Assembly (NCBI GenBank): GCA_012837885.1
Contig: DUQI01000028.1
Span: forward strand, 1-44,645
From: Fastidiosipila sp.
Lineage (GTDB): Bacteria > Bacillota > Clostridia > Saccharofermentanales > DTU023
Direction of reading: 5' to 3'
DNA length: 44,645 nt
Shown here piece by piece: positions 145-14,420 of this stretch. Under the pieces are notes generated by a model. It saw only the letters and a program-made list of their open reading frames with translations. It was not told the DNA's origin and ran no database searches. Both the position numbers and the translations under genes were made by a program. The number at the start of each line of letters is the position of its first letter. Positions within the stretch are counted from its first letter, which is position 1.

Positions 145-174
145 GATCGCCTCTTCAACGGGGCGATCTTTTTT
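145..174 (+). terminator. Rho-independent terminator
   Basis: GATCGCC (145-151) pairs with GGCGATC (162-168) around a 10-base loop and is followed directly by six T (169-174). It closes the upstream partial gene and isolates it from the gene at 229. Confidence 0.85.
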
Positions 175-190
175 GTTGTTACGAAGCTTA

Positions 191-228: not shown

Positions 229-657
229 ATGGAAGAACAGAAGAAATCGACGCGCATTCCGCGCTTCATGAAACCGCGAGATCTGATCATACTTGCCGTA
301 CTGGTGGCAGCTGCCATCATCTGGTTTATTCTCTCGCGTCAGGTGCCTGCCGGGCTTCAGACGGAGGCCGTCGTGCATATCGATCATGTCGAGGTCGCGA
401 GGATACCTCTCGTGCCGGGAAATCCTCTGGACTATTCGTTTCCGGAGCGACCGTCCGTTCATTTCCATCGTTATGAGGATGGTTCATTCGCCTTTGTCGA
501 GTCTGACTGTCCCGATAAAGTGTGTATCAAGGAAGGTCGTTTGAAACAACCGTATCATTATGCCGCCTGTCTGCCGAACATGGTGGTGGTGACGATTGAG
601 GCGGTTGAAGGCCAGGCGACCGATCCTTCCGATTTGGAGATTGATTTTGTCTACTAG
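229..657 (+). CDS. NusG domain II-containing membrane protein
   Basis: 142 residues: a short basic N-terminus, one membrane segment at about 18-35 (LIILAVLVAAAIIWFIL), then an extracellular NusG_II-type beta domain. Diagnostic elements are ESDCPDKVC and the later ACLPN, which give three conserved cysteines. Despite the name this family is not NusG; it is an extracytoplasmic domain of unknown biochemical role. In Firmicutes it is commonly encoded beside the Gx transporter family and beside ApbE/FMN-binding proteins (recalled, not checked). The next gene starts inside this gene's last codons, so the two are translationally coupled. No ribosome binding site precedes the ATG; see the promoter entry. 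Confidence 0.85.
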   Translation: MEEQKKSTRIPRFMKPRDLIILAVLVAAAIIWFILSRQVPAGLQTEAVVHIDHVEVARIPLVPGNPLDYSFPERPSVHFHRYEDGSFAFVESDCPDKVCIKEGRLKQPYHYAACLPNMVVVTIEAVEGQATDPSDLEIDFVY

Positions 658-1240
658 AACGCCACAATTGAAGTCGCATCAAGCGGTGCGCACGCTGACC
701 ATCACGGCGCTGTTGTTCGCTATGGCGATCGCCTTGTCCCTCTTTGAAGGGTTGCTGCCGCCGATTCCTTCGCCGGTACCGTTGAAGTATGGGCTTTCGA
801 ATATCGCGATCATGTACGCCCTTTTCTTTCTCGGTCCGAAGTCGGCGTTTACGATCGCCGTGTTAAAAAGCACATTTATTATTATGACGCGCGGACTGTT
901 TGCCGGTCTCGTCAGTATCGGCGGTGGTCTACTGAGCGTTCTCGTCATGTATCTACTCTACAAGTTATCGAAAGCGCGATTATCGTATCTATTGATCTCA
1001 GTAGCCGGTGCAATTTTTCATAATGCCGGCCAACTTTTTGTGGCGATGGTGATCTTGAATATGCCGCTCGCGTTCGGTTATATCGTGCCGCTTATGGCCT
1101 TGACCGGTGTCGGCACCGGCATCCTGTCGGCGGTGCTTTTGAAGCTGATCATACCGGCGTTGGCGGCGATTCCCGGACACAAGGAATGGATGACTTTTGC
1201 CTCTGAAAAGAAAGCTCAAATGGATGACGAATTGCCTTAA
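647..1240 (+). CDS. Gx transporter family membrane protein (annotated elsewhere as heptaprenyl diphosphate synthase component I)
   Basis: The TTG at 647 is chosen as start because GGAG (636-639) lies 7 bases upstream and the frame overlaps the preceding stop (655-657). The product is 197 residues with about five or six hydrophobic segments. It carries the family pattern LPPIPSPVPLKYGLSNIAI near residues 35-55 and glycine-rich helices (GGGLLS, GVGTG). The family (PF07456) was named after a heptaprenyl diphosphate synthase subunit but looks like a small ECF/S-component-type transporter. Its neighbours, NusG_II before and the repeat protein and ApbE after, fit a surface redox locus better than quinone side-chain synthesis. 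The substrate is unknown. Confidence 0.8.
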   Translation: MSTRTPQLKSHQAVRTLTITALLFAMAIALSLFEGLLPPIPSPVPLKYGLSNIAIMYALFFLGPKSAFTIAVLKSTFIIMTRGLFAGLVSIGGGLLSVLVMYLLYKLSKARLSYLLISVAGAIFHNAGQLFVAMVILNMPLAFGYIVPLMALTGVGTGILSAVLLKLIIPALAAIPGHKEWMTFASEKKAQMDDELP

Positions 1241-1248
1241 TAATAGGC

Positions 1249-1276
1249 TTGCAGAATGTAACTTTACTGGTATTAT
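1249..1276 (+). promoter_or_regulatory. Promoter for the six-repeat secreted protein
   Basis: TTGCAG (1249-1254), 16-base spacer, TATTAT (1271-1276), with an extended -10 TGG immediately before it. It lies just after the Gx transporter stop, so the repeat protein can be transcribed independently. An imperfect hairpin (ACGGGTA/TACCGT, about 1292-1309) lies in the leader, and AGGAGG at 1316-1321 is the ribosome binding site. Confidence 0.6.
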
Positions 1277-1332
1277 CAGCTAAATCAAATTACGGGTATT
1301 AACTACCGTGTTTTCAGGAGGAAAGAAATCAA

Positions 1333-4260
1333 ATGAAGACAAAGACAGCTCTGTTGATAGCGCTGGCGCTGCTGTTTTCCTGTCTCGCCGGATTTACGCC
1401 GGCGGTACACGCGGAGACGGGCGAAGCCAGACTTGGTCTCGGGCTCGTCACGGATGTTACTGGTTCGACATCTGCAACGGAAACGGAGGACGGACGCGCG
1501 AAAGTCGATACGACTGCGGTCGCCGTGCTCTTGGATGCTGATGACACGATCATCGACGTAAAAATCGATATCGTACAGCCGTACTCCTTCTTCGACTCGG
1601 CAGGAGTCGTGGTGGAGACAAAGGATTTCATGACGAAGCGTGAACTGGGCGATGACTATGGCATGGTTAACGCTTCGCCGATCGGGAAAGAATGGTATGA
1701 ACAGGCGAGTGCACTGGAAGATTACTGGATTGGTAAGACAGTAGCCGAAGCCCTCGCGATGGAAGTGGATGAAGAAGTGCGCCCGACGGGTGAAGATCTC
1801 ATCGCGTCCGTGACCGTCCATGTCGACACCTTCTTGCTCGCGCTCGAAAAGGCAGCCGCTACGGCCGAAGCCGTCGGCAGCAAGACGAGCGACCGCATCG
1901 GCCTCGGCATTACGGCGAATAATAAGCGTTCCGGCAATGCGACTGAAGACGCCGAAGGTCTGACTCAGGCTTATCTTCATGTCGCCGCTTTGTCCGTCGG
2001 AGAAGATGGCTTGATTAGCGCCGCCATTATCGACGGTCTGCAGGCCAACATCAAATTCGACATGGAAGGACAGATCACGTCGGATCTCGAAGCCGAAGTG
2101 AAATCGAAAAATGAACTCGGTGACGAATACGGCATGCGTGCCGCCTCGGGGATTGATGCCGAATGGTTTGAACAAGCCAAAGCGTTCGCCGCATATCTAG
2201 TAGGCAAGACGGCAGCAGACGTCGAAGGTCTGGCTGTCGAAGAAGGTAAAACGACCGATAAAGATCTCTCCGCTTCGGTGACCATTAGTGTGACCGATAT
2301 GCAGGCGGTGGCCGTCAAGGCGTATAACGACGCGCTCGGCGCAAAAGCCGTTGAAGGCAAGGCAGTGAAGACCGGACTTGGTATCGTCACCAATATCTCC
2401 GGTTCGACGTCGGCGGACGGCGAGACGGCCGGTCGCGCCAAAGTCGATTCGACGGTCGTCGGTGTGATGCTCGACGAGAACGATATTGTGCTCGATGTCA
2501 TCATCGACGTCATTCAACCGTACACTGAGTGGGACGCCGAAGGCGTGGTCAGTGAACTAAAGTCTTACTCCAGCAAGCTCGAACTCGGCGATGACTACGG
2601 CATGAAGGCTGCCTCCGAGATCGGTGCCGAATGGTATGAACAATCCGAATCGTTGTCTGCCTACTGGACCGGCAAAACGGTCGAAGAAGTGCTGGCGATG
2701 GAACTGAACGACGACAACGCGCCGGCAGATCAGGATCTCGCGGCGTCCGTCACGGTCAGTGTCAACGTTTATCTAACCGCATTCAAAGAAGCTGTTGAAG
2801 CAGCGGCCGAGCATGGTGCCGAATCGACAGACACCTTGACACTCGCCATTATCGCCGACAACAACCGCTCGAAAGATGTGGCGGAAGACGCGGACGGCCT
2901 GGCCGAAGCGTACATCCACTATGGTCTCTTTACGTTTGATCAAGAAGCCAAAGTCACCTCCGCCGTGATTGACGCGGTGCAGGCCAGAGTCAACTTTGAC
3001 GGCGAAGGTCAGATCACGAGCGATTTGGTCGAAGACGTGACGACGAAAGTCGAACTCGGTGCTGACTACGGTATGGTCGTCGCTTCCGAGATCGGTAAAG
3101 AATGGTACGAACAGATCGACGCGTTCGAAGCATTCATCGTCGGTAAGACGGCCGAGGAAGTGAATGAACTGGCTGACGAAGACGGTAAAGCGGCGGACGA
3201 AGATCTCGTCGCCTCTGTCACGATCACGATCACGGCGCTGCAGCAGCTCGTAAGTGAAGCGGCGGAACAGCTCTCTGACGTCGAAGCGCCGGTTAATCCG
3301 GAAGAAGAACCGACTGAGCCGGAAGCTGAAGGGGCGAAGACCGGACTCGCCGTGATGACGGATGTCTCGGGATCCACCTCGGCTGACGGAGAGACCGACG
3401 GCAGAGCGAAGACCGATATCACGGTCGTCGCCGTGCTGGTCGCTGAAGACGGCACGATCGCCGACGTCAAACTCGACATCGTGCAGCCTTACACCTTCTT
3501 TGATGCTGAGGGCAAGATTGTCGAAACGAAGAGCTTTATGACGAAGCGCGAACTCGGTTATGAGTACGGCATGCTGCAAGCGTCCGCAATTGAAAAAGAG
3601 TGGTTTGAGCAAGCGAGCGCGTTTGAAGCATTCGTCCGCGGAAAGTCTCTCGAAGATGTCCTCGCCATGGAATTGGACGATGAACATCGTCCGGCCGATG
3701 AAGACCTCAAAGCGTCCGTGACCGTCCATGTCGATGCCTATCTCGCCGCTCTGGAAAAGGCCGTGAATAATGCGGTAGCCAGCGGTGCCGAAGCGACCGA
3801 CGAGCTCGGTCTCGGTATCGTCGCCACCAATATGCGTTCGAAGGACGCCGACGGCGAAACAGACGGCCAGACGGAAGCGTACGTTCACTACGCGGCAGTG
3901 ACCTTCAACGCCGACGGCGTCGTCACCTCTGCCATTTTGGACGCAAACCAGCCGAAAGTCAGTTTTGACGCCGCAGGCCAGATCACGTCGGATCTCGAAG
4001 CGGAACAGCCGACCAAGTTGGAACTCGGTGCCGATTACGGCATGGTTGCCGCCTCGGAAATCGGTAAAGAGTGGAATGAACAGGCTGAAGCCCTGGCACT
4101 TCATGTGGTCGGCAAAAACGTCGAGGAGATCTTGACGTTGGCCGATGACGAAGGCGCAGTCGCAGACGAAGATCTCGTGGCATCCGTCACGATTTCGATC
4201 GATACGATGCTCGAAACGATTCATAAGGCATATCAGGATGCCTCGGTGGTGGCTGAGTAA
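1333..4260 (+). CDS. Secreted protein of six FMN-binding-like repeats (three A-B pairs)
   Basis: 975 residues. A signal peptide ends at about AVHA (24-27); C17 in LFSC is a weak lipobox alternative. Six domains of about 150 residues follow: A1 34-187, B1 188-345, A2 346-500, B2 501-651, A3 669-823, B3 824-975, with a Pro/Glu linker at 652-668. Every domain has a beta-rich start, the core ELGxxYGM...EW[YFN]EQ, a GK[TSN] turn and a closing DLxASVT element. A domains also carry [DN][VI][ST]GSTS (41-47, 354-360, 677-683), which resembles the ApbE flavinylation motif (D..[ST]GA[ST]). The overall layout recalls FMN_bind domains, but the canonical SGAT is absent. The protein is strongly acidic and encoded directly before apbE. 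A role as a surface flavoprotein is inference; the family is not one I can name with certainty. Confidence 0.75.
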   Translation: MKTKTALLIALALLFSCLAGFTPAVHAETGEARLGLGLVTDVTGSTSATETEDGRAKVDTTAVAVLLDADDTIIDVKIDIVQPYSFFDSAGVVVETKDFMTKRELGDDYGMVNASPIGKEWYEQASALEDYWIGKTVAEALAMEVDEEVRPTGEDLIASVTVHVDTFLLALEKAAATAEAVGSKTSDRIGLGITANNKRSGNATEDAEGLTQAYLHVAALSVGEDGLISAAIIDGLQANIKFDMEGQITSDLEAEVKSKNELGDEYGMRAASGIDAEWFEQAKAFAAYLVGKTAADVEGLAVEEGKTTDKDLSASVTISVTDMQAVAVKAYNDALGAKAVEGKAVKTGLGIVTNISGSTSADGETAGRAKVDSTVVGVMLDENDIVLDVIIDVIQPYTEWDAEGVVSELKSYSSKLELGDDYGMKAASEIGAEWYEQSESLSAYWTGKTVEEVLAMELNDDNAPADQDLAASVTVSVNVYLTAFKEAVEAAAEHGAESTDTLTLAIIADNNRSKDVAEDADGLAEAYIHYGLFTFDQEAKVTSAVIDAVQARVNFDGEGQITSDLVEDVTTKVELGADYGMVVASEIGKEWYEQIDAFEAFIVGKTAEEVNELADEDGKAADEDLVASVTITITALQQLVSEAAEQLSDVEAPVNPEEEPTEPEAEGAKTGLAVMTDVSGSTSADGETDGRAKTDITVVAVLVAEDGTIADVKLDIVQPYTFFDAEGKIVETKSFMTKRELGYEYGMLQASAIEKEWFEQASAFEAFVRGKSLEDVLAMELDDEHRPADEDLKASVTVHVDAYLAALEKAVNNAVASGAEATDELGLGIVATNMRSKDADGETDGQTEAYVHYAAVTFNADGVVTSAILDANQPKVSFDAAGQITSDLEAEQPTKLELGADYGMVAASEIGKEWNEQAEALALHVVGKNVEEILTLADDEGAVADEDLVASVTISIDTMLETIHKAYQDASVVAE

Positions 4261-4296
4261 AGACGTTATAAAAGAGGCGAAAGCCCATCGACAGAA

Positions 4297-4318
4297 AGCC
4301 GCCGCAAGGCGGCTTTTT
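4297..4318 (+). terminator. Rho-independent terminator
   Basis: AGCCGCC (4297-4303), GCAA tetraloop, GGCGGCT (4308-4314), then a short T run to 4318. It ends the repeat-protein transcript. The -35 region of the apbE promoter overlaps its T run. Confidence 0.85.
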
Positions 4319-4346
4319 GTTCGCTCGTAGTAGCCTGTGCTATAGT
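4317..4346 (+). promoter_or_regulatory. Promoter for apbE and the ABC importer
   Basis: Extended -10 TGC-TATAGT (4341-4346 for the hexamer) with a weak -35 TTGTTC at 4317-4322 and an 18-base spacer. The predicted transcript start at about 4353 coincides with the first base of an 18-base palindrome. Confidence 0.5.
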
Positions 4347-4352
4347 TTGTTT

Positions 4353-4370
4353 GCGCATCAAAAGATGCGC
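4353..4370 (+). promoter_or_regulatory. Perfect palindrome/hairpin at the 5' end of the apbE mRNA
   Basis: GCGCATC AAAA GATGCGC: a 7-bp perfect stem with an AAAA loop, ending 3 bases before the GAGG ribosome binding site (4374-4377). There is no T run, so it is not a terminator. It could be a repressor operator overlapping the transcript start, or a 5'-end mRNA stabilising hairpin that also limits ribosome access. Confidence 0.5.
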
Positions 4371-4382
4371 CACGAGGTATAC

Positions 4383-5507
4383 ATGTCAATGCGGATAAAG
4401 CACATGCTTGCGGTCGTCACGGCCGGTCTTATTCTCTTTTCTGCCGCCTGCGGGGCGAACGTTCAAACGCCTGCCACTACGACGTCCCGCGCTGTCGATG
4501 CGGCCACTTCGGCGACCGAACCGGCGGAGCTCACGCGTTATCGAAGCAGTTTCCTCGGCGTCTTCGATACCTTGACGACGGTAATCGGGTATGCCGAAAG
4601 TCAGGATGCATTCGACGAGTACATGCGTGTGATCCGTGATAAGTTGACCTTTTACCATCAGATATTCAATACGTACGATGCGTTCGAAGGGGTCAACAAT
4701 TTAAAAACCGTCAATGAGAAGGCCGGAATCGAACCGGTCGAGGTCGATCCTGAGATTATCGAACTTTTGAAGCAGTGTATCTGGGCGAATGAGGTGAGTG
4801 ACGGCAACGTCAATGTCGCGTTCGGTGCCGTCTTAAAGATCTGGCACGATCACCGCGAGATCGGCATCCATGATCCGGAACGGGCCAGTGTGCCGGATAA
4901 AGCGACGCTTGAGGCGGCGAATCAGCATACGGATATCTCTCAGATCGAGATCGATGAGGAAAGGTCGACCGTCTTTTTGAAAGACCCTGAAATGCGTCTC
5001 GATGTCGGCTCCGGCTCGAAAGGATATGCGACGGAACAGGTCGCGAGGGAAGTCGAGGCGATGGGGCTTAAGTCCGCCGTGATTTCGGTAGGCGGCAATA
5101 TCCGGGCGATCGGCATCAGGCCTGACAGCGAAACGCCGTGGCGTATCGGTATACAAAATCCGGATAAGGAGCAAGAGTCGAATATCATCGAATTGTTGTC
5201 GATCGACAATCTGTCGGTCGTCACGTCCGGTGTATATGAACGCTTCTACGCCGTCGACGGCGTGCGCTACCACCACATCATCGATCCTGAAACGCTGTTT
5301 CCTGAGGATACGTTTGATGCCGTGACGATCGTCACACCGAGTTCGGCTTTAGCCGATGCGCTGACGACGGCGCTGTTTAACATGAGTCTGGAAGACGGTA
5401 TGGCGCTGATTGGAAGCATGGAAAACTGTGAAGCGCTCTGGCTGAAAGGCGAAGAGCGGTTCATGACCGAGGGGTTTGAAAAATACATAGTGAGGGATGC
5501 AAAGTGA
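4383..5507 (+). CDS. apbE: FAD:protein FMN transferase, lipoprotein
   Basis: ApbE moves FMN from FAD to a Thr/Ser of extracytoplasmic redox proteins. The ATG at 4383 is chosen (GAGG 5 bases upstream), giving 374 residues. The signal peptide ends in FSAAC (C23), a lipobox, so the enzyme should sit on the outer face of the membrane. Family marks are FDT near the N-terminus, DVGSGSKGYAT (D207-), SVGGNIRAIG, WRIGIQNP, VTSGVYERF, HHIIDPET (H297-T304) and ADALTTALF. These form the FAD and Mg2+ sites. The acceptor protein is not obvious: no canonical SGAT protein lies in the window, and the repeat protein just upstream is the nearest candidate. Its stop overlaps the GTG of the following lipoprotein gene by 4 bases. 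Confidence 0.92.
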   Translation: MSMRIKHMLAVVTAGLILFSAACGANVQTPATTTSRAVDAATSATEPAELTRYRSSFLGVFDTLTTVIGYAESQDAFDEYMRVIRDKLTFYHQIFNTYDAFEGVNNLKTVNEKAGIEPVEVDPEIIELLKQCIWANEVSDGNVNVAFGAVLKIWHDHREIGIHDPERASVPDKATLEAANQHTDISQIEIDEERSTVFLKDPEMRLDVGSGSKGYATEQVAREVEAMGLKSAVISVGGNIRAIGIRPDSETPWRIGIQNPDKEQESNIIELLSIDNLSVVTSGVYERFYAVDGVRYHHIIDPETLFPEDTFDAVTIVTPSSALADALTTALFNMSLEDGMALIGSMENCEALWLKGEERFMTEGFEKYIVRDAK

Positions 5508-6379
5508 AAAAGTCAGTGAATCGTGTACGTTCGTTTTGGTTGCTGCTTCTTGTTTTGGTAGTCGCGCTGAGTGCCTGTACTCCGGCCGCAAAACCGACTG
5601 AATCGGCGACCAATCCTGAAGTTGAGGTGAGAAAAGTCAAGATCGCCTATGCCCAGGCGGCACGGCCGATCACCTTTACCGATGAGGACGGCAATGCCTC
5701 CGGCTATGACGTCGAGGTCATGCGTCTGATCGATGAACGTCTGCCGCAGTATGAGTTTGAGTTTGTCGGCACATCCGACGAAGACGCTCTGATCGGAGTC
5801 GAGACCGGTGCTTATGAAGCGACGGTAAAAAATGTCTTCTACACGGACGAGCGTGCCGAACGCTACATTTATCCGAAAGAAAACGTCGGCGGTAGCAACA
5901 CCGGCCTGGTGGTGCGGGCTGAGGATAAAGACCATATCAAGGATCTTGAATCACTGGCGGCAGCCGGCGGCAAACTGGTACCGATCGCTCCCCAGTCGGC
6001 GCAGTACGCGCTGGTGCGCGCCTACAACGAGAAACATCCGGAACAAGCGATTGAGCTCTTGTCGGCGGATGATTTCAATCTGGTCGACGCCTACACGTGG
6101 ATCGCGGAAGGACGCTACGATGCCTTCTTGAATTTGAAGGCGCTCTACCGTGTGCAGGTCGAAGTCGAAGACGGACCATTCAGTCAGCTCGCTGATGAAC
6201 TCGTCTATCAGCCGTTTGCCGCGATTCCGACCTGGCCGCTCTTCAACAAGGCGGAACAGGAACTGGCAGATGCCTATGACGTCGTGATCCGCGAGCTGAA
6301 AGCCGACGGCACCCTGCGCGAGCTGTCCAAAAAGTGGTTTGATGAGGACGTGTTCGATCTTTTAGCCAAGGCGCCGTAA
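5504..6379 (+). CDS. Polar amino acid ABC transporter substrate-binding lipoprotein
   Basis: 291 residues starting at a GTG that overlaps the apbE stop. The signal peptide ends in the lipobox LSAC (C25), so the protein is membrane-tethered. The body follows the SBP_bac_3 (family 3) pattern: FTDEDGNASGYDVEVMRLI after the first strand, then VFYTDERAERYIYPKE, the equivalent of the usual T..R...F.F motif, and a C-terminal ELKADGTLRELSKKWF. These proteins capture polar amino acids outside the cell and pass them to two permeases. The arrangement of one ATPase and two distinct permeases recalls cystine-type importers, but the ligand cannot be decided here. Confidence 0.88.
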   Translation: MKKSVNRVRSFWLLLLVLVVALSACTPAAKPTESATNPEVEVRKVKIAYAQAARPITFTDEDGNASGYDVEVMRLIDERLPQYEFEFVGTSDEDALIGVETGAYEATVKNVFYTDERAERYIYPKENVGGSNTGLVVRAEDKDHIKDLESLAAAGGKLVPIAPQSAQYALVRAYNEKHPEQAIELLSADDFNLVDAYTWIAEGRYDAFLNLKALYRVQVEVEDGPFSQLADELVYQPFAAIPTWPLFNKAEQELADAYDVVIRELKADGTLRELSKKWFDEDVFDLLAKAP

Positions 6380-6385
6380 CGTACT

Positions 6386-7114
6386 GTGAGCTACCGCACG
6401 TTTGATGCGAGACAGATTGTCGATGCGCTCGGCGTGCTGTTGCCGTACGTCGGCATTAGCCTGCTTATTTTACTGATCTCGACGGTGATCGGGATGCTAC
6501 TCGGGCTTTTGCTCGCTTCGATGCTGGTCGGCAGACACCGTGCTCTGACGTTGTTCGCGCGCGTGTTCATGCGTTTCATGCGCGGTGCACCGGCCGTCGT
6601 TTTGCTCCTACTCGTCTTCTATGGTTTGCCGGTGCTCTGGACCGGTATCGGCTTACCGGCGATTTCCCAGATCAGCCGCTTTGTCGCCGTCATCATCACC
6701 TTTGCCCTGATCGCGTCGGCCCAGATGGCGAACGTCTTTACGGCAGCCTATAGAGCCATCCCGCAATCGCAGCGTGATGCGGCGATCGCCGTCGGCTACA
6801 CGGCCTCGGCCAGGTTCTTTCGTGTCATCCTGCCTCAAGGTATCCGAAACGCGCTGCCGAATCTGGCCAATACGATCACCTGGCTACTCAAGGAAGGTGC
6901 CGTCGCCTACACGATCGGTGTGATCGATCTGGTCGGGCGGGCACAGCTTCGTATATCCGCCAATTACGGAGGTTTCGCGCTCGAGACATACATCGCCCTT
7001 GCGATTATTTTCTTTTTGCTGATCAGAATAATCGAGTTATCCTTCCATTTCATCGAAAAGAAGGCGTCACGTCACCTAAGCATGACCGGCCACAAGGAAA
7101 TCTCCGATGCCTGA
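6386..7114 (+). CDS. Polar amino acid ABC transporter permease (first)
   Basis: 242 residues, GTG start 6 bases after the binding-protein stop, with a poor ribosome binding site that suggests coupled translation. Five or so membrane segments and the HisMQ-type signature MRGAPAVVLLLLVFYGLP are visible. The EAA loop region reads AYRAIPQSQRDAAIAVGYTASARFFRVILPQ, here split across residues of about 118-150, and contacts the ATPase. It forms the channel with the second permease, whose ATG lies 8 bases before this gene's end. Family assignment is secure; the substrate is not. Confidence 0.9.
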   Translation: MSYRTFDARQIVDALGVLLPYVGISLLILLISTVIGMLLGLLLASMLVGRHRALTLFARVFMRFMRGAPAVVLLLLVFYGLPVLWTGIGLPAISQISRFVAVIITFALIASAQMANVFTAAYRAIPQSQRDAAIAVGYTASARFFRVILPQGIRNALPNLANTITWLLKEGAVAYTIGVIDLVGRAQLRISANYGGFALETYIALAIIFFLLIRIIELSFHFIEKKASRHLSMTGHKEISDA

Positions 7115-7826
7115 GTCGGGTGTATTCTTCGGTACGTTGCAGCAGGTCCTGCGCGGGTTGCCTTACACCTTGCTTCTGACCTTTGTGCCGCTCGCCTTCG
7201 CTTTTTTGCCGGGGCTCTGGTTTGGTTGGCTGCGTGCGAAAAAGAGTGTCGTCGGTTCGCGCCTCGTCGGCGCCTACGTGACCTTGTTTCGTTCGTTGCC
7301 TCTTGTCTTGCAGATGCTCTTTGCCTATAGCTGGCTGCCGAGCCTGCTCGCCTCCTTTGTCCGTGCCAGAGCATGGGATATCGATGTGTTCTCTATTTCA
7401 CCTATTTATTACGCGCTCATCGTTCTGTTTTTGAACACGGTGGCCGCTTTAAGCGAAGTGTTTCGCGCGGCCTTTTCCGCTGTGTCGCGGCACGAGGTGG
7501 AGGCGGCTTTAGCTGTCGGATATAAAAAACGGCAGGCGTTTTTCCGCGTCTGGTTACCCCAGGCGGTGACCTACGCGCTGCCGAATCTCGCCTCGGCGAC
7601 GGTCAACCTGGTCCGCCAGAGCTCGCTCGCGTACCTGATGACGGTTCCGGAGATGACAGCGAGAGCGAGGATGGCCGCCGGACTCACGTTCGATACGATC
7701 ACGGCGTATGCGGCACTTCTTTTGTCTTATGTCGTCCTTTGCTTTGTCATCGATACGATCTATGATGTGGTCTACGCCAGGGTCATCCGAAAGATGACCG
7801 GGACGCTTCGCTACCGGGGTACGTGA
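7107..7826 (+). CDS. Polar amino acid ABC transporter permease (second)
   Basis: 239 residues, overlapping the first permease by 8 bases. Membrane segments and the HisMQ pattern TLFRSLPLVLQMLFAYSWLP are present. The ATPase-contact loop runs from about FRAAFSAVSRHEVEAALAVG to FFRVWLPQA. The two permeases are only distantly alike, so the channel is probably a heterodimer. Its stop codon overlaps the start region of the ATPase gene. Confidence 0.9.
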   Translation: MPESGVFFGTLQQVLRGLPYTLLLTFVPLAFAFLPGLWFGWLRAKKSVVGSRLVGAYVTLFRSLPLVLQMLFAYSWLPSLLASFVRARAWDIDVFSISPIYYALIVLFLNTVAALSEVFRAAFSAVSRHEVEAALAVGYKKRQAFFRVWLPQAVTYALPNLASATVNLVRQSSLAYLMTVPEMTARARMAAGLTFDTITAYAALLLSYVVLCFVIDTIYDVVYARVIRKMTGTLRYRGT

Positions 7827-8569
7827 TGCTAACGATTGAAGGCTTGACCAAACGCTACGGCGCACTTGTTGTGCTCGACAATATCTCTCTGACGATTGAA
7901 AGAGGGGAGATCGTCTCCGTGATCGGTCCGTCCGGCGGCGGCAAGACGACGCTTCTGCGCATGATCGACCTGCTAGAGCCGGCCGATCGGGGAGAGATGA
8001 CTCTCGGCGATCTTGTCGTCGATTTGAAACGCCCCGGCAAAAAGACGACGCTCGCCGTCAGGCGCCGGATCGGGTTTGTCTTTCAACAGTTCAATCTGTT
8101 CTCGCATCGTACGGTCAAAGAGAATATTCTGGACGCCCTGATCTACGGCCACGGATACGCCAAGCCGGAGGCCGAAAAGCGCGCCGCCGAAGTGATCGCC
8201 ATGGTCGATCTGGAAGATAAGACGGACGCCTATCCGATCACTTTGTCGGGAGGCCAGGCTCAGCGGGCGGCGATCGCCCGCGCGATCGCGCCTTCGCCCG
8301 ATCTGCTAATCCTCGATGAGCCGACGTCGGCACTCGATCCTGAACTGACAGGTGAAGTCATCGCGGTGATCAAGGCGCTCGCCACACAGGGGATGACGAT
8401 GCTCCTCGTTACCCACCATATCGGCCTGGCGCGAGAACTGGCCGACCGTGTGCTCGTTTTGGACGCCGGACGCTTCATCGAAGAAGGCCCGGTGGCGAAC
8501 GTATTGGAGCATCCGCAGACGGATCGAACGAGAAGCTTTCTCGAGCGCGTACGAAACCTGTGGCGCTAA
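7826..8569 (+). CDS. Amino acid ABC transporter ATP-binding protein
   Basis: 247 residues from the ATG at 7826, which overlaps the preceding TGA by one base; GGGG lies about 6 bases upstream. A GTG one codon earlier is also possible. Walker A is GPSGGGKTT (K40), the Q loop is FQQFNLF, the signature is LSGGQAQRAAIARAI, Walker B is LLILDEPTSALDPE and the switch histidine is in VTHH. These are the full set for a GlnQ/TcyN-type ATPase that drives the preceding permeases. It ends the apbE-transporter transcript; a separate promoter follows. Confidence 0.92.
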   Translation: MLTIEGLTKRYGALVVLDNISLTIERGEIVSVIGPSGGGKTTLLRMIDLLEPADRGEMTLGDLVVDLKRPGKKTTLAVRRRIGFVFQQFNLFSHRTVKENILDALIYGHGYAKPEAEKRAAEVIAMVDLEDKTDAYPITLSGGQAQRAAIARAIAPSPDLLILDEPTSALDPELTGEVIAVIKALATQGMTMLLVTHHIGLARELADRVLVLDAGRFIEEGPVANVLEHPQTDRTRSFLERVRNLWR

Positions 8570-11390: not shown

Positions 11391-12021
11391 AGGCAAGAAG
11401 AAGACGAGAAATCGTTTCGTCGGCGCTTTTTTCCGCTGGCTCGTCTCAAACGGGTTGAATTTTTTCTATCGGATCAAGGTGAGCGGTAAACAACATGTGC
11501 CGGAGACGGGACCTTTCATCCTGATCGGTAACCACGAACATGTTTTCGACCCGCTCGTCATTCAGATGCACGTCAAACCATGGATCTACTGGGTAGCCAA
11601 AAGCGAGCTCTACAAAATCCCCCTGATCGGAGCCATCCTGAGAGCGATCGGCACGGTGCCGTTTCAGCGCGAAGAGATGGATGTCGCCGCGCTTCGAAAG
11701 ATCGTGAGCATCGTGAAAAACGGGGAAGTCGTCGGTATATTCCCGCAAGGCCGCCGTGTCGCCCCGGATGAAAGAGACGAGGTGTTGCCGAAATCGGCGA
11801 CCGCGCATCTGGCGCGGCGGTTTCAGGTACCGGTATTGCCGGTGGCGATCGAAAACGGTTTTCATCTGTTTGGCAAGAAGCGGCCGCACATCATATTCGG
11901 CGAACCGTTTATGGTGGACAAAGACGGTGACGACATGGAGATCGCGATCGATATGCTTAAGCGCGTCTACCGCCTGATGGGGGAGACGTATCAGCCAAAA
12001 AGAAAAGAGGAACAGGCATGA
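11365..12021 (+). CDS. plsC: 1-acyl-sn-glycerol-3-phosphate acyltransferase
   Basis: 218 residues if the GTG at 11365 is used (26-base overlap with cmk); the ATG at 11374 is an equally possible start because neither has a clear ribosome binding site. The catalytic NHEHVFD (HX4D) motif and the later FPQGRR motif identify a PlsC-type enzyme that makes phosphatidic acid at the membrane. It lacks obvious long membrane helices. The stop overlaps the ATG of ispH-rpsA (ATGA). Confidence 0.88.
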   Translation: MSNMAAAAKGKKKTRNRFVGAFFRWLVSNGLNFFYRIKVSGKQHVPETGPFILIGNHEHVFDPLVIQMHVKPWIYWVAKSELYKIPLIGAILRAIGTVPFQREEMDVAALRKIVSIVKNGEVVGIFPQGRRVAPDERDEVLPKSATAHLARRFQVPVLPVAIENGFHLFGKKRPHIIFGEPFMVDKDGDDMEIAIDMLKRVYRLMGETYQPKRKEEQA

Positions 12022-14420
12022 ATATTACGGTCGCAAAGGCATCCGGCTTTTGTCCCGGCGTGAAACGTGCCGTCGATACGGCGCACGATCTCGCGTCGCA
12101 GTCGGAGCGCCCCGTCTATATGTACGGTGAACTGGTGCATAACCCGCACGTGATCGATGAACTGACGGCACAGGGCGTGAAAATCGCACACCGGGTGGAA
12201 GATATCACCGAACCGGCGACCGTCCTCGTGCGTGCCCACGGCATCACGCCCGCGGAGATGAATGATCTGCTGGCAGCCGGGCACGACGTCGTCGACCGTA
12301 CATGTCCATTTGTCTCGCAGATTCACCGCATCGTCGAAGAAGCGAACCGTAACGGTGAGCGGGTGATTATCACCGGATCGAAGACGCATCCTGAAGTCGT
12401 CGGTGTGCTGGGGCACGACGGCGGACAGGCGATCGTTCTCGATTCACTGGAAACGGCTGAAACGACCGATTTTCCTGAAGGAAAATACGTACTTGTCTCG
12501 CAGACGACGTTCTCGAAAAAAACGTTTGATGAAATCTGCAAAATGCTCAAAATTAAAATTGCAATGCTTCGGATATTTGATACAATATGTGTTACGACTG
12601 CGTCAAGACAGGACGAAGCGAAGCACCTTGCTACGAATTCCGATGTGATGTTTGTGCTTGGAAGTCAAGCCAGCTCGAACACGCAAAAATTGGTTGACGT
12701 ATGCAAGGAACGTTGCGCCGAGACTTATCTTGTGGAACAGCCGGACGAGATCAGGCCCATACTGTCAGGTTTGGATCTTCGTTCGCTCAACATTGGCATC
12801 ACTGCCGGCGCTTCGACACCAGAACGTATGATCGGGGAGGTAATCCGCATAATGACAGAACAAGAAGGCTTGACAAACCAGAAAGAACCAAATAACGAAT
12901 TCGATTTTGAGGAGTTCGTTGATAGCATCCCGCAACTGAAGAAAGGCACTGTCGTCAAGGGAAACATCATTCGCTACGATAGTGATTTCGTGTACGTGGA
13001 TGTAAAGGACAAATCGGAAGGGAGAATACCGCTTTCTGAGTTTGGTTCGGATTTTGATTTGGAAGCTGCTGCCAACGATCATAGCGAGGTCGAAGTTTAC
13101 GTCAGAAACATCCGCAACACAGATCAGGGTAAAGAAATCACGCTGTCCAAGTCGCGCGTCGACTACACAAAGGACAAAGATTTTGTTGAGAAAGCGTATC
13201 AGGAAAAAACGCCGATCACCGTGCGTGTCAAACACGTGGTGAAAGACGGCCTGATCGCCGCTTACGGACACATCGACATCTATGTACACCGTACACAGGT
13301 CGAGGCGCAGCCAGTCAAAGAATTAGATCCTTATCTCGGCCAGACATTTGATATTCTGGTCACTCAGTTTGAACCGGACAGACGCCGTCTGCGCGTCGCC
13401 GGCTCACGCCGCTCGCTTCTGCAAAAAGAACGCCGTCGCCGCGCCAATGAGATTTGGGCGTCGATGGAAGTCGGTGAAGAATACGAAGGCACGGTGCGGA
13501 ATCTGACCGATTTCGGTGCGTTCGTCGACCTCGGTGGCGTGGACGGACTCGTTCACATCAGCGAACTCTCCTGGGGCAGAATCAAGCACCCGTCGGAAGT
13601 CGTTCAGGTCGGTGACAAGATTCCGGTCTTTGTCCGCGAATTTGATCCGGAGAGAAAACGTGTATCGCTCGGCTACCGCAGAGCCGAAATGGATCCTTAC
13701 AAGGACGTCGAAGAACGCTTCCCGGTCGGCTCGATCGTGCGCGGTATCATCGTCCGGATCTTCGCCTTCGGTGCGTTCATCGAGATCGCTCCGGGCGTCG
13801 ATGCGCTCTGCCATATTTCACAGATCTCGGACTATCGTCTGACCAAACCGAACGAGGTATTGGAAGTCGGTATGGAAGTCGACGCCAGAGTGCTGGAAGT
13901 CTCGAACGAGGCGCGCCGCATCAGCGTCAGCATCCGTGACGTGGAGCCGATCAACCCGGTGCGGGAAGATCCGCCGGAGCGTCCGCGTAGAGGCGGTAGA
14001 GGCGGCGGTGAATTCTACGACCTGCCGACCAGCTACAGCGATACGAAGACCGGTAGCAGCCTCGGCGATATCGCCACCTTCACCTCGTTTGACAACGAGC
14101 CGGTGGAAGAAGAAGTCGAAGAGCCGGTTGAAGAAGTAGAAGAGACGGTCGAAGAACCGGCGGAAGACAGGGCGCTCATTTCCGACGAATCGCCGAGAAC
14201 GCTGGTCGAGCAGCCGTCCTTGGAGCCGGAAGCGATCGAAGAAGACGTTGTGACCGAAGAAGAAGTTTTAGCTGAAGTCGAAGAAGCGATCGAAGCTGAG
14301 CCGACGCAAGCGGAAGAAGTTGTCGATGAGGCAGTAGAAGAAGCGGTGCAGGACATTGAAAGCGAAGTCGAGGCGAAAGAAGCTGAAGACGACGCAAAAG
14401 AGGAAGACGCTGACGCGTAA
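12018..14420 (+). CDS. ispH: IspH - ribosomal protein S1 fusion
   Basis: 800 residues. Residues 1 to about 280 are 4-hydroxy-3-methylbut-2-enyl diphosphate reductase, the last MEP-pathway step. The three iron-sulfur cysteines are C12 (GFCPGVKRA), C96 (DRTCPF) and C191 (TICVTTASRQDEA). Four S1 RNA-binding domains follow at roughly 309-380, 396-465, 485-555 and 568-640; the last two are best conserved (GFGAFVDLG-type turns). Then comes an Arg/Gly patch (RPRRGGRGGG, about 655-664) and a glutamate-rich tail (692-800). IspH-S1 fusions are known in Clostridia. Unusual here are an AT-rich stretch with a promoter-like sequence inside the IspH part, and a ribosome binding site plus in-frame ATG at the joint (12852), so free S1 may also be made. 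Confidence 0.93.
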   Translation: MNITVAKASGFCPGVKRAVDTAHDLASQSERPVYMYGELVHNPHVIDELTAQGVKIAHRVEDITEPATVLVRAHGITPAEMNDLLAAGHDVVDRTCPFVSQIHRIVEEANRNGERVIITGSKTHPEVVGVLGHDGGQAIVLDSLETAETTDFPEGKYVLVSQTTFSKKTFDEICKMLKIKIAMLRIFDTICVTTASRQDEAKHLATNSDVMFVLGSQASSNTQKLVDVCKERCAETYLVEQPDEIRPILSGLDLRSLNIGITAGASTPERMIGEVIRIMTEQEGLTNQKEPNNEFDFEEFVDSIPQLKKGTVVKGNIIRYDSDFVYVDVKDKSEGRIPLSEFGSDFDLEAAANDHSEVEVYVRNIRNTDQGKEITLSKSRVDYTKDKDFVEKAYQEKTPITVRVKHVVKDGLIAAYGHIDIYVHRTQVEAQPVKELDPYLGQTFDILVTQFEPDRRRLRVAGSRRSLLQKERRRRANEIWASMEVGEEYEGTVRNLTDFGAFVDLGGVDGLVHISELSWGRIKHPSEVVQVGDKIPVFVREFDPERKRVSLGYRRAEMDPYKDVEERFPVGSIVRGIIVRIFAFGAFIEIAPGVDALCHISQISDYRLTKPNEVLEVGMEVDARVLEVSNEARRISVSIRDVEPINPVREDPPERPRRGGRGGGEFYDLPTSYSDTKTGSSLGDIATFTSFDNEPVEEEVEEPVEEVEETVEEPAEDRALISDESPRTLVEQPSLEPEAIEEDVVTEEEVLAEVEEAIEAEPTQAEEVVDEAVEEAVQDIESEVEAKEAEDDAKEEDADA
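12559..12586 (+). promoter_or_regulatory. Possible internal promoter inside ispH
   Basis: TTGCAA (12559-12564), 16-base spacer, TACAAT (12581-12586) preceded by an extended -10 TGA. It lies in a locally AT-rich stretch of the IspH coding region and points toward the S1 half. Confidence 0.45.
12834..12854 (+). promoter_or_regulatory. Internal ribosome binding site and start at the IspH/S1 joint
   Basis: GGGGAGG (12834-12840) lies 11 bases before an in-frame ATG (12852-12854; residue 279 of the fusion). Initiation here would give a 522-residue S1 protein with all four S1 domains and the acidic tail. Confidence 0.45.

Follow-up and report, generated by a model that had tools for sequence, protein, structure and literature searches.

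A six-domain FMN-bind2-type protein with a non-canonical candidate flavinylation motif in a putative extracellular electron-transfer cassette of Fastidiosipila sp.

We analysed a 44,645-nucleotide stretch of Fastidiosipila sp. DNA (the window), which is contig C121 of a 1.93-Mb genome (G000, about 92% complete). On its plus strand, genes for a NusG_II protein, a Gx protein of the EetB family, a 975-residue six-repeat protein and ApbE precede an amino-acid-type ABC importer. The NusG_II gene (229..657; PF07009, E = 2.5e-18) encodes a membrane-anchored extracytosolic protein which, like its counterparts in relatives, lies next to Gx and may be considered EetA-like. The Gx (Hpre_diP_synt_I) gene (647..1240, start uncertain; PF07456, E = 3e-30) belongs to the Pfam family by which EetB is defined (PMC9973259), and EetB is reported to export FAD (literature including PMC9973259). 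The secreted repeat protein is encoded at 1333..4260 and is followed by ApbE, a putative lipoprotein FAD:protein FMN transferase (4383..5507, likely ATG at 4383; PF02424, E = 5.8e-68). Family matches and coordinates thus bear out the consecutive arrangement of these four genes described in an earlier note on this DNA.

Two terminator-like hairpins, both on the plus strand, punctuate the cassette. The first, with its T tract, lies just 5' of the cassette (145..178) and was the top-listed site of a sequence scan; transcription therefore probably starts at the NusG_II gene. The second was found by scan and folding in the gap between the carrier gene and apbE (4295..4318; AAAGCCGCC-GCAA-GGCGGCTTT followed by a T tract). 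The stretch 4285-4325 folds with -24.1 kcal/mol (z = -6.4), and 0/200 shuffled sequences were equally stable. This hairpin may keep the carrier in excess over the enzyme. Downstream, family matches identify an amino-acid/cystine-type importer (5504..8569, plus strand; solute-binding protein, two permeases and ATPase), the first gene of which overlaps the apbE stop codon, and the same gene order is found in a locus of the same genus (L003). Cystine uptake may be linked with surface redox chemistry. Further along the window, positions 12018-14420 encode ribosomal S1 domains fused to LytB (IspH).

What kind of protein is the putative carrier? None of the Pfam families, PF04205 among them, and none of the NCBIfam families matched the 975-residue sequence above cut-off. 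It is built, as the earlier note had seen, of six repeats (156-167 residues, 34-62% identity to the first). The repeats alternate between a type A (1, 3 and 5) and a type B (2, 4 and 6), forming three A/B pairs, and the AlphaFold model of one two-repeat unit reached a pLDDT of 97 and a pTM of 0.93. All six end in D-L-x-A-S-V-T. On the plus strand, the motif reads DLIASVT in domain 1 (1429..1869, codons 1795-1815), DLSASVT in domain 2 (1894..2334, codons 2263-2283), DLAASVT in domain 3 (2368..2808, codons 2734-2754), DLVASVT in domain 4 (2836..3270, codons 3202-3222), DLKASVT in domain 5 (3337..3774, codons 3703-3723; single-domain model pLDDT 93) and again DLVASVT in domain 6 (3805..4242, codons 4171-4191). 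It takes the place of the canonical ApbE-substrate motif D-x-x-[S/T]-G-A-[S/T], which is absent from all six repeats. The earlier note's statement that SGAT is absent is correct for this protein, but a diverged form, ASVT, is present at the equivalent position of every repeat.

Sequence comparison shows homology between the repeat protein and FMN_bind domains. When the six repeats were searched as a profile, they matched the solved SGAT-bearing protein 2kzx (E = 5.7e-6) with ASVT aligned on SGAT, and an hhalign comparison of the family alignment with 29 FMN_bind sequences returned the same register (probability 94%, E = 9e-8). In addition, bridging proteins (L169-L175) match both PF04205 and the repeat family and carry the intermediate motifs AGVT and SGAT. 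One of them, encoded on the minus strand of L174 at 662-2242, has SGAT once and ASVS three times at equivalent positions, such that the motif changes inside a single chain. Foldseek searches of the PDB, run with a model of the pair and one of the single domain, yielded nothing at E<=0.001 and no FMN_bind structures among the 50 best matches of either, and did not confirm the fold; weak matches to MHC-like proteins and IscU (TM below 0.5) were set aside. The size of the repeats and their pairing fit the published FMN-bind2 subtype, a paired domain of about 160 residues that is related to but longer than FMN-bind1 (Huang 2024, PMC11334425). Its authors predict that FMN-bind2 is flavinylated, in a text that describes no FMN-bind2 experiment. 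Both the FMN_bind homology and the fit to FMN-bind2 speak against the proposal that the window encodes a flavin carrier different from the known ones.

Relatives of the repeat protein were encoded in 337 of 344 candidate stretches from GTDB genomes, of which we kept 80, nearly all from Clostridia. Two domains were counted in 76 of the fetched proteins, four in three and six in one, the window protein. Single-domain members also exist in some genera: eight loci (L121, L128, L137, L139, L142, L145, L147 and L148) have a single-domain FMN-bind2 gene adjoining apbE, which breaks the even-number pattern, with Lys for the motif Gly (e.g., DLKSKVT). In all but a few of 224 domains, mostly from Clostridia, the motif reads [DE]-[LI]-x-[AST]-x-V-[TS]. 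Its last residue is Thr in 184 and Ser in 39, accounting for all 223 aligned domains, and of the 146 columns in the alignment none but this candidate acceptor position is 100% Ser/Thr.

Is the protein associated with ApbE elsewhere? The earlier note had suggested examining the gene neighbourhoods of homologues for repeated association with apbE, and in 95 of 109 loci apbE proved to be the next gene downstream, in the same orientation. An independent class sample gave a similar picture, with apbE adjacent in 26/29 loci and two of the three misses due to contig-end cuts. Among the 292 class genomes, ApbE was present in 31/31 of those with strong domain matches and in 187/261 of the others (Fisher p = 6e-5, uncorrected for phylogeny). 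It is very probable that ApbE acts on the repeat protein as its substrate and that this protein belongs to a cassette for extracellular electron transfer.

The window ApbE is the only ApbE in its genome (a single match). Alignment with the FmnB-type transferase 7esa showed that TSGxYER and HHxxDP are kept; the catalytic region is thus retained, with DPxTG changed to DPETL. In a tree of ApbE proteins, all 96 enzymes encoded next to FMN-bind2 genes fell into one clade apart from 20 paralogues, most of its members having Leu for the Gly of the DPxTG loop. We rejected the idea that this clade is strictly dedicated to the domain because seven of the 23 ApbEs in the tree from genomes without FMN-bind2 nest inside it, some of them beside RnfB or NusG_II-Gx.

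Taken together, these features make it probable, in our view, that the cassette serves flavin export, attachment and carriage of the Gram-positive extracellular electron transfer (EET) kind, with a multi-flavin carrier flavinylated at a non-canonical motif. In its favour, single G-to-A and A-to-V changes in the motif only reduced flavinylation, to about half (literature). Several points count against it. (i) ASVT departs from the canonical motif at two positions that ApbE is thought to read. (ii) The Gly position is Lys or Leu in some relatives. (iii) FMN_bind structures were not among the 50 best Foldseek matches of either model. (iv) The window's genome contains other ApbE substrates, and ApbEs of the same clade occur in genomes that lack the domain. 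(v) A search of the roughly 92% complete genome detected neither Ndh2 of the EET-locus type nor UbiA, which leaves it without the usual electron donor; in a same-genus neighbour, no UbiA was found and the Ndh2 match was only weak.

The repeat protein had been proposed as the only candidate acceptor, on the grounds that no FMN_bind, Rnf or Nqr protein was present. This absence holds within the window, but other contigs of the genome contain 15 FMN_bind matches together with Rnf and Nqr loci; we therefore rejected any argument from the window alone, and the sole ApbE must have other substrates, since Rnf, Nqr and multi-FMN_bind proteins share it. One of these proteins, an RnfG-like protein with many FMN_bind repeats that is apparently split by a contig break (contigs C84 and C58; L113 1-2077, L112 3-2510), is in kind the multi-flavinylated RnfG of Meheust 2021 (PMC8238504). 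In the same-genus locus L003 (599-2635), a secreted protein combining FMN_bind with a fumarate-reductase-like part lies between the Gx and FMN-bind2 genes; it is absent from the window.

Could the repeats be degenerate FMN_bind relatives that carry no covalent flavin and act as non-covalent binders, ApbE partners or scaffolds, while ApbE serves Rnf, Nqr and FMN_bind reductases? The loss of the canonical G-A in nearly all 224 domains would agree with this, as would other candidate substrates in the window's genome and in 78 of the 80 further FMN-bind2 genomes to which the PF04205 search was applied. Yet the acceptor Thr/Ser is kept in every aligned domain while neighbouring positions drift, and T-to-S swaps at the acceptor are tolerated by ApbE (literature). 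Moreover, G130, a 100% complete genome in a single contig, encodes one ApbE and an FMN-bind2 protein within a full seven-gene locus, and none of the three acceptor families searched there (FMN_bind, NqrB/RnfD and Flavodoxin_4) was found. A metagenome-assembled genome, G083, resembles it: both genes are kept and the same three families were not found. We thus regard a degenerate domain without covalent flavin as unlikely.

How would a flavinylated carrier work? The EetA/EetB-like NusG_II and Gx proteins would help to bring FAD outside the cell, where ApbE would split it and fasten FMN to all six FMN-bind2 domains, at the Thr of their D-L-x-A-S-V-T motifs. With A/B pairing, this would yield three two-flavin units, and a single secreted chain, loaded with a maximum of six FMNs, could pass electrons outwards from the membrane. 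For many Clostridia, Ndh2 with demethylmenaquinone, for which the same locus carries the genes, would act as donor; in the window's genome, lacking detectable Ndh2 and UbiA, Rnf or Nqr is the more likely donor, and secreted FMN_bind reductases may be the acceptors.

The earlier note had left open whether the system transfers electrons or buffers redox state. Storage of six FMNs outside the cell with no dedicated electron path would suit the many domains, the secretion and the missing Ndh2 and UbiA. However, the loci of relatives hold NADH dehydrogenase and quinone-prenylation genes, pointing to electron flow: neighbours were counted as Ndh2 in 57 loci, HepT (a polyprenyl synthase) in 55, Gx in 52, UbiA in 44 and NusG_II in 40. 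We consider storage or buffering very improbable. That the genes are chance neighbours with no functional link, as the relatives without adjacent apbE might suggest, is hardly credible given the 95/109 adjacency, the conserved order and the spread of FMN-bind2 genomes over 14 families of the class sample.

The electron-transfer reading may extend beyond this genome. All seven genes occur together in 26 loci, which resemble the EET set of Listeria except that FMN-bind2 stands where PplA would be. We lean, with some reserve, towards a class-wide carrier lineage that has taken over from PplA in the EET loci of Clostridia. Its flavinylation would take place at [DE]-[LI]-x-[AST]-x-V-[TS] and would be the work of a clade of ApbE enzymes with a DPxTL loop (otherwise conserved as DPxTG), which would widen the range of motifs that ApbE is known to accept. 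Should FMN prove to be attached to the ASVT threonine, the recognition motif accepted for ApbE would be too narrow, and electron carriers of a kind widespread among the Clostridia of gut, rumen and digesters would have escaped surveys based on motifs or Pfam. This would also identify the protein in PplA's role for many Clostridia EET loci, and a chain of six domains would form a natural relay passing electrons over several flavins, comparable in this to a multiheme cytochrome.

Similar to the Listeria/Enterococcus EET locus (PplA, FmnB), the window combines ApbE, Gx (EetB) and NusG_II with a putative extracellular FMN carrier; the joint presence of ApbE, EetB and an extracytosolic carrier is a trait of Gram-positive EET. 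Ndh2, UbiA and HepT complete the likeness in the full loci of many relatives, unlike in the window's genome, where Ndh2 and UbiA were not found. The FMN sites of PplA, Thr143 and Thr265, are 122 residues apart (PMC8906456) and lie in SGAT motifs (PMC7074142), whereas the motifs of the window protein are spaced by about 156 residues and read ASVT. Multi-flavinylated proteins (Meheust 2021, PMC8238504; SaFMN3/CbFMN4, PMC10339131) are likewise secreted, with several FMN domains and an adjacent flavin transferase, but carry FMN_bind motifs of the DxxxGAT type. In size and pairing, the window protein resembles the FMN-bind2 of PMC11334425, which shares the kinship with FMN_bind, forms pseudo-symmetric pairs (two or four domains) with predicted two-flavin units and includes an Erysipelotrichaceae example. 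The main text of that paper gives no motif to set beside ASVT, which differs from [S/T]GA[S/T]. Thus, the subtype itself was already known, and what the window adds to it is a six-domain form and a conserved non-canonical acceptor motif.
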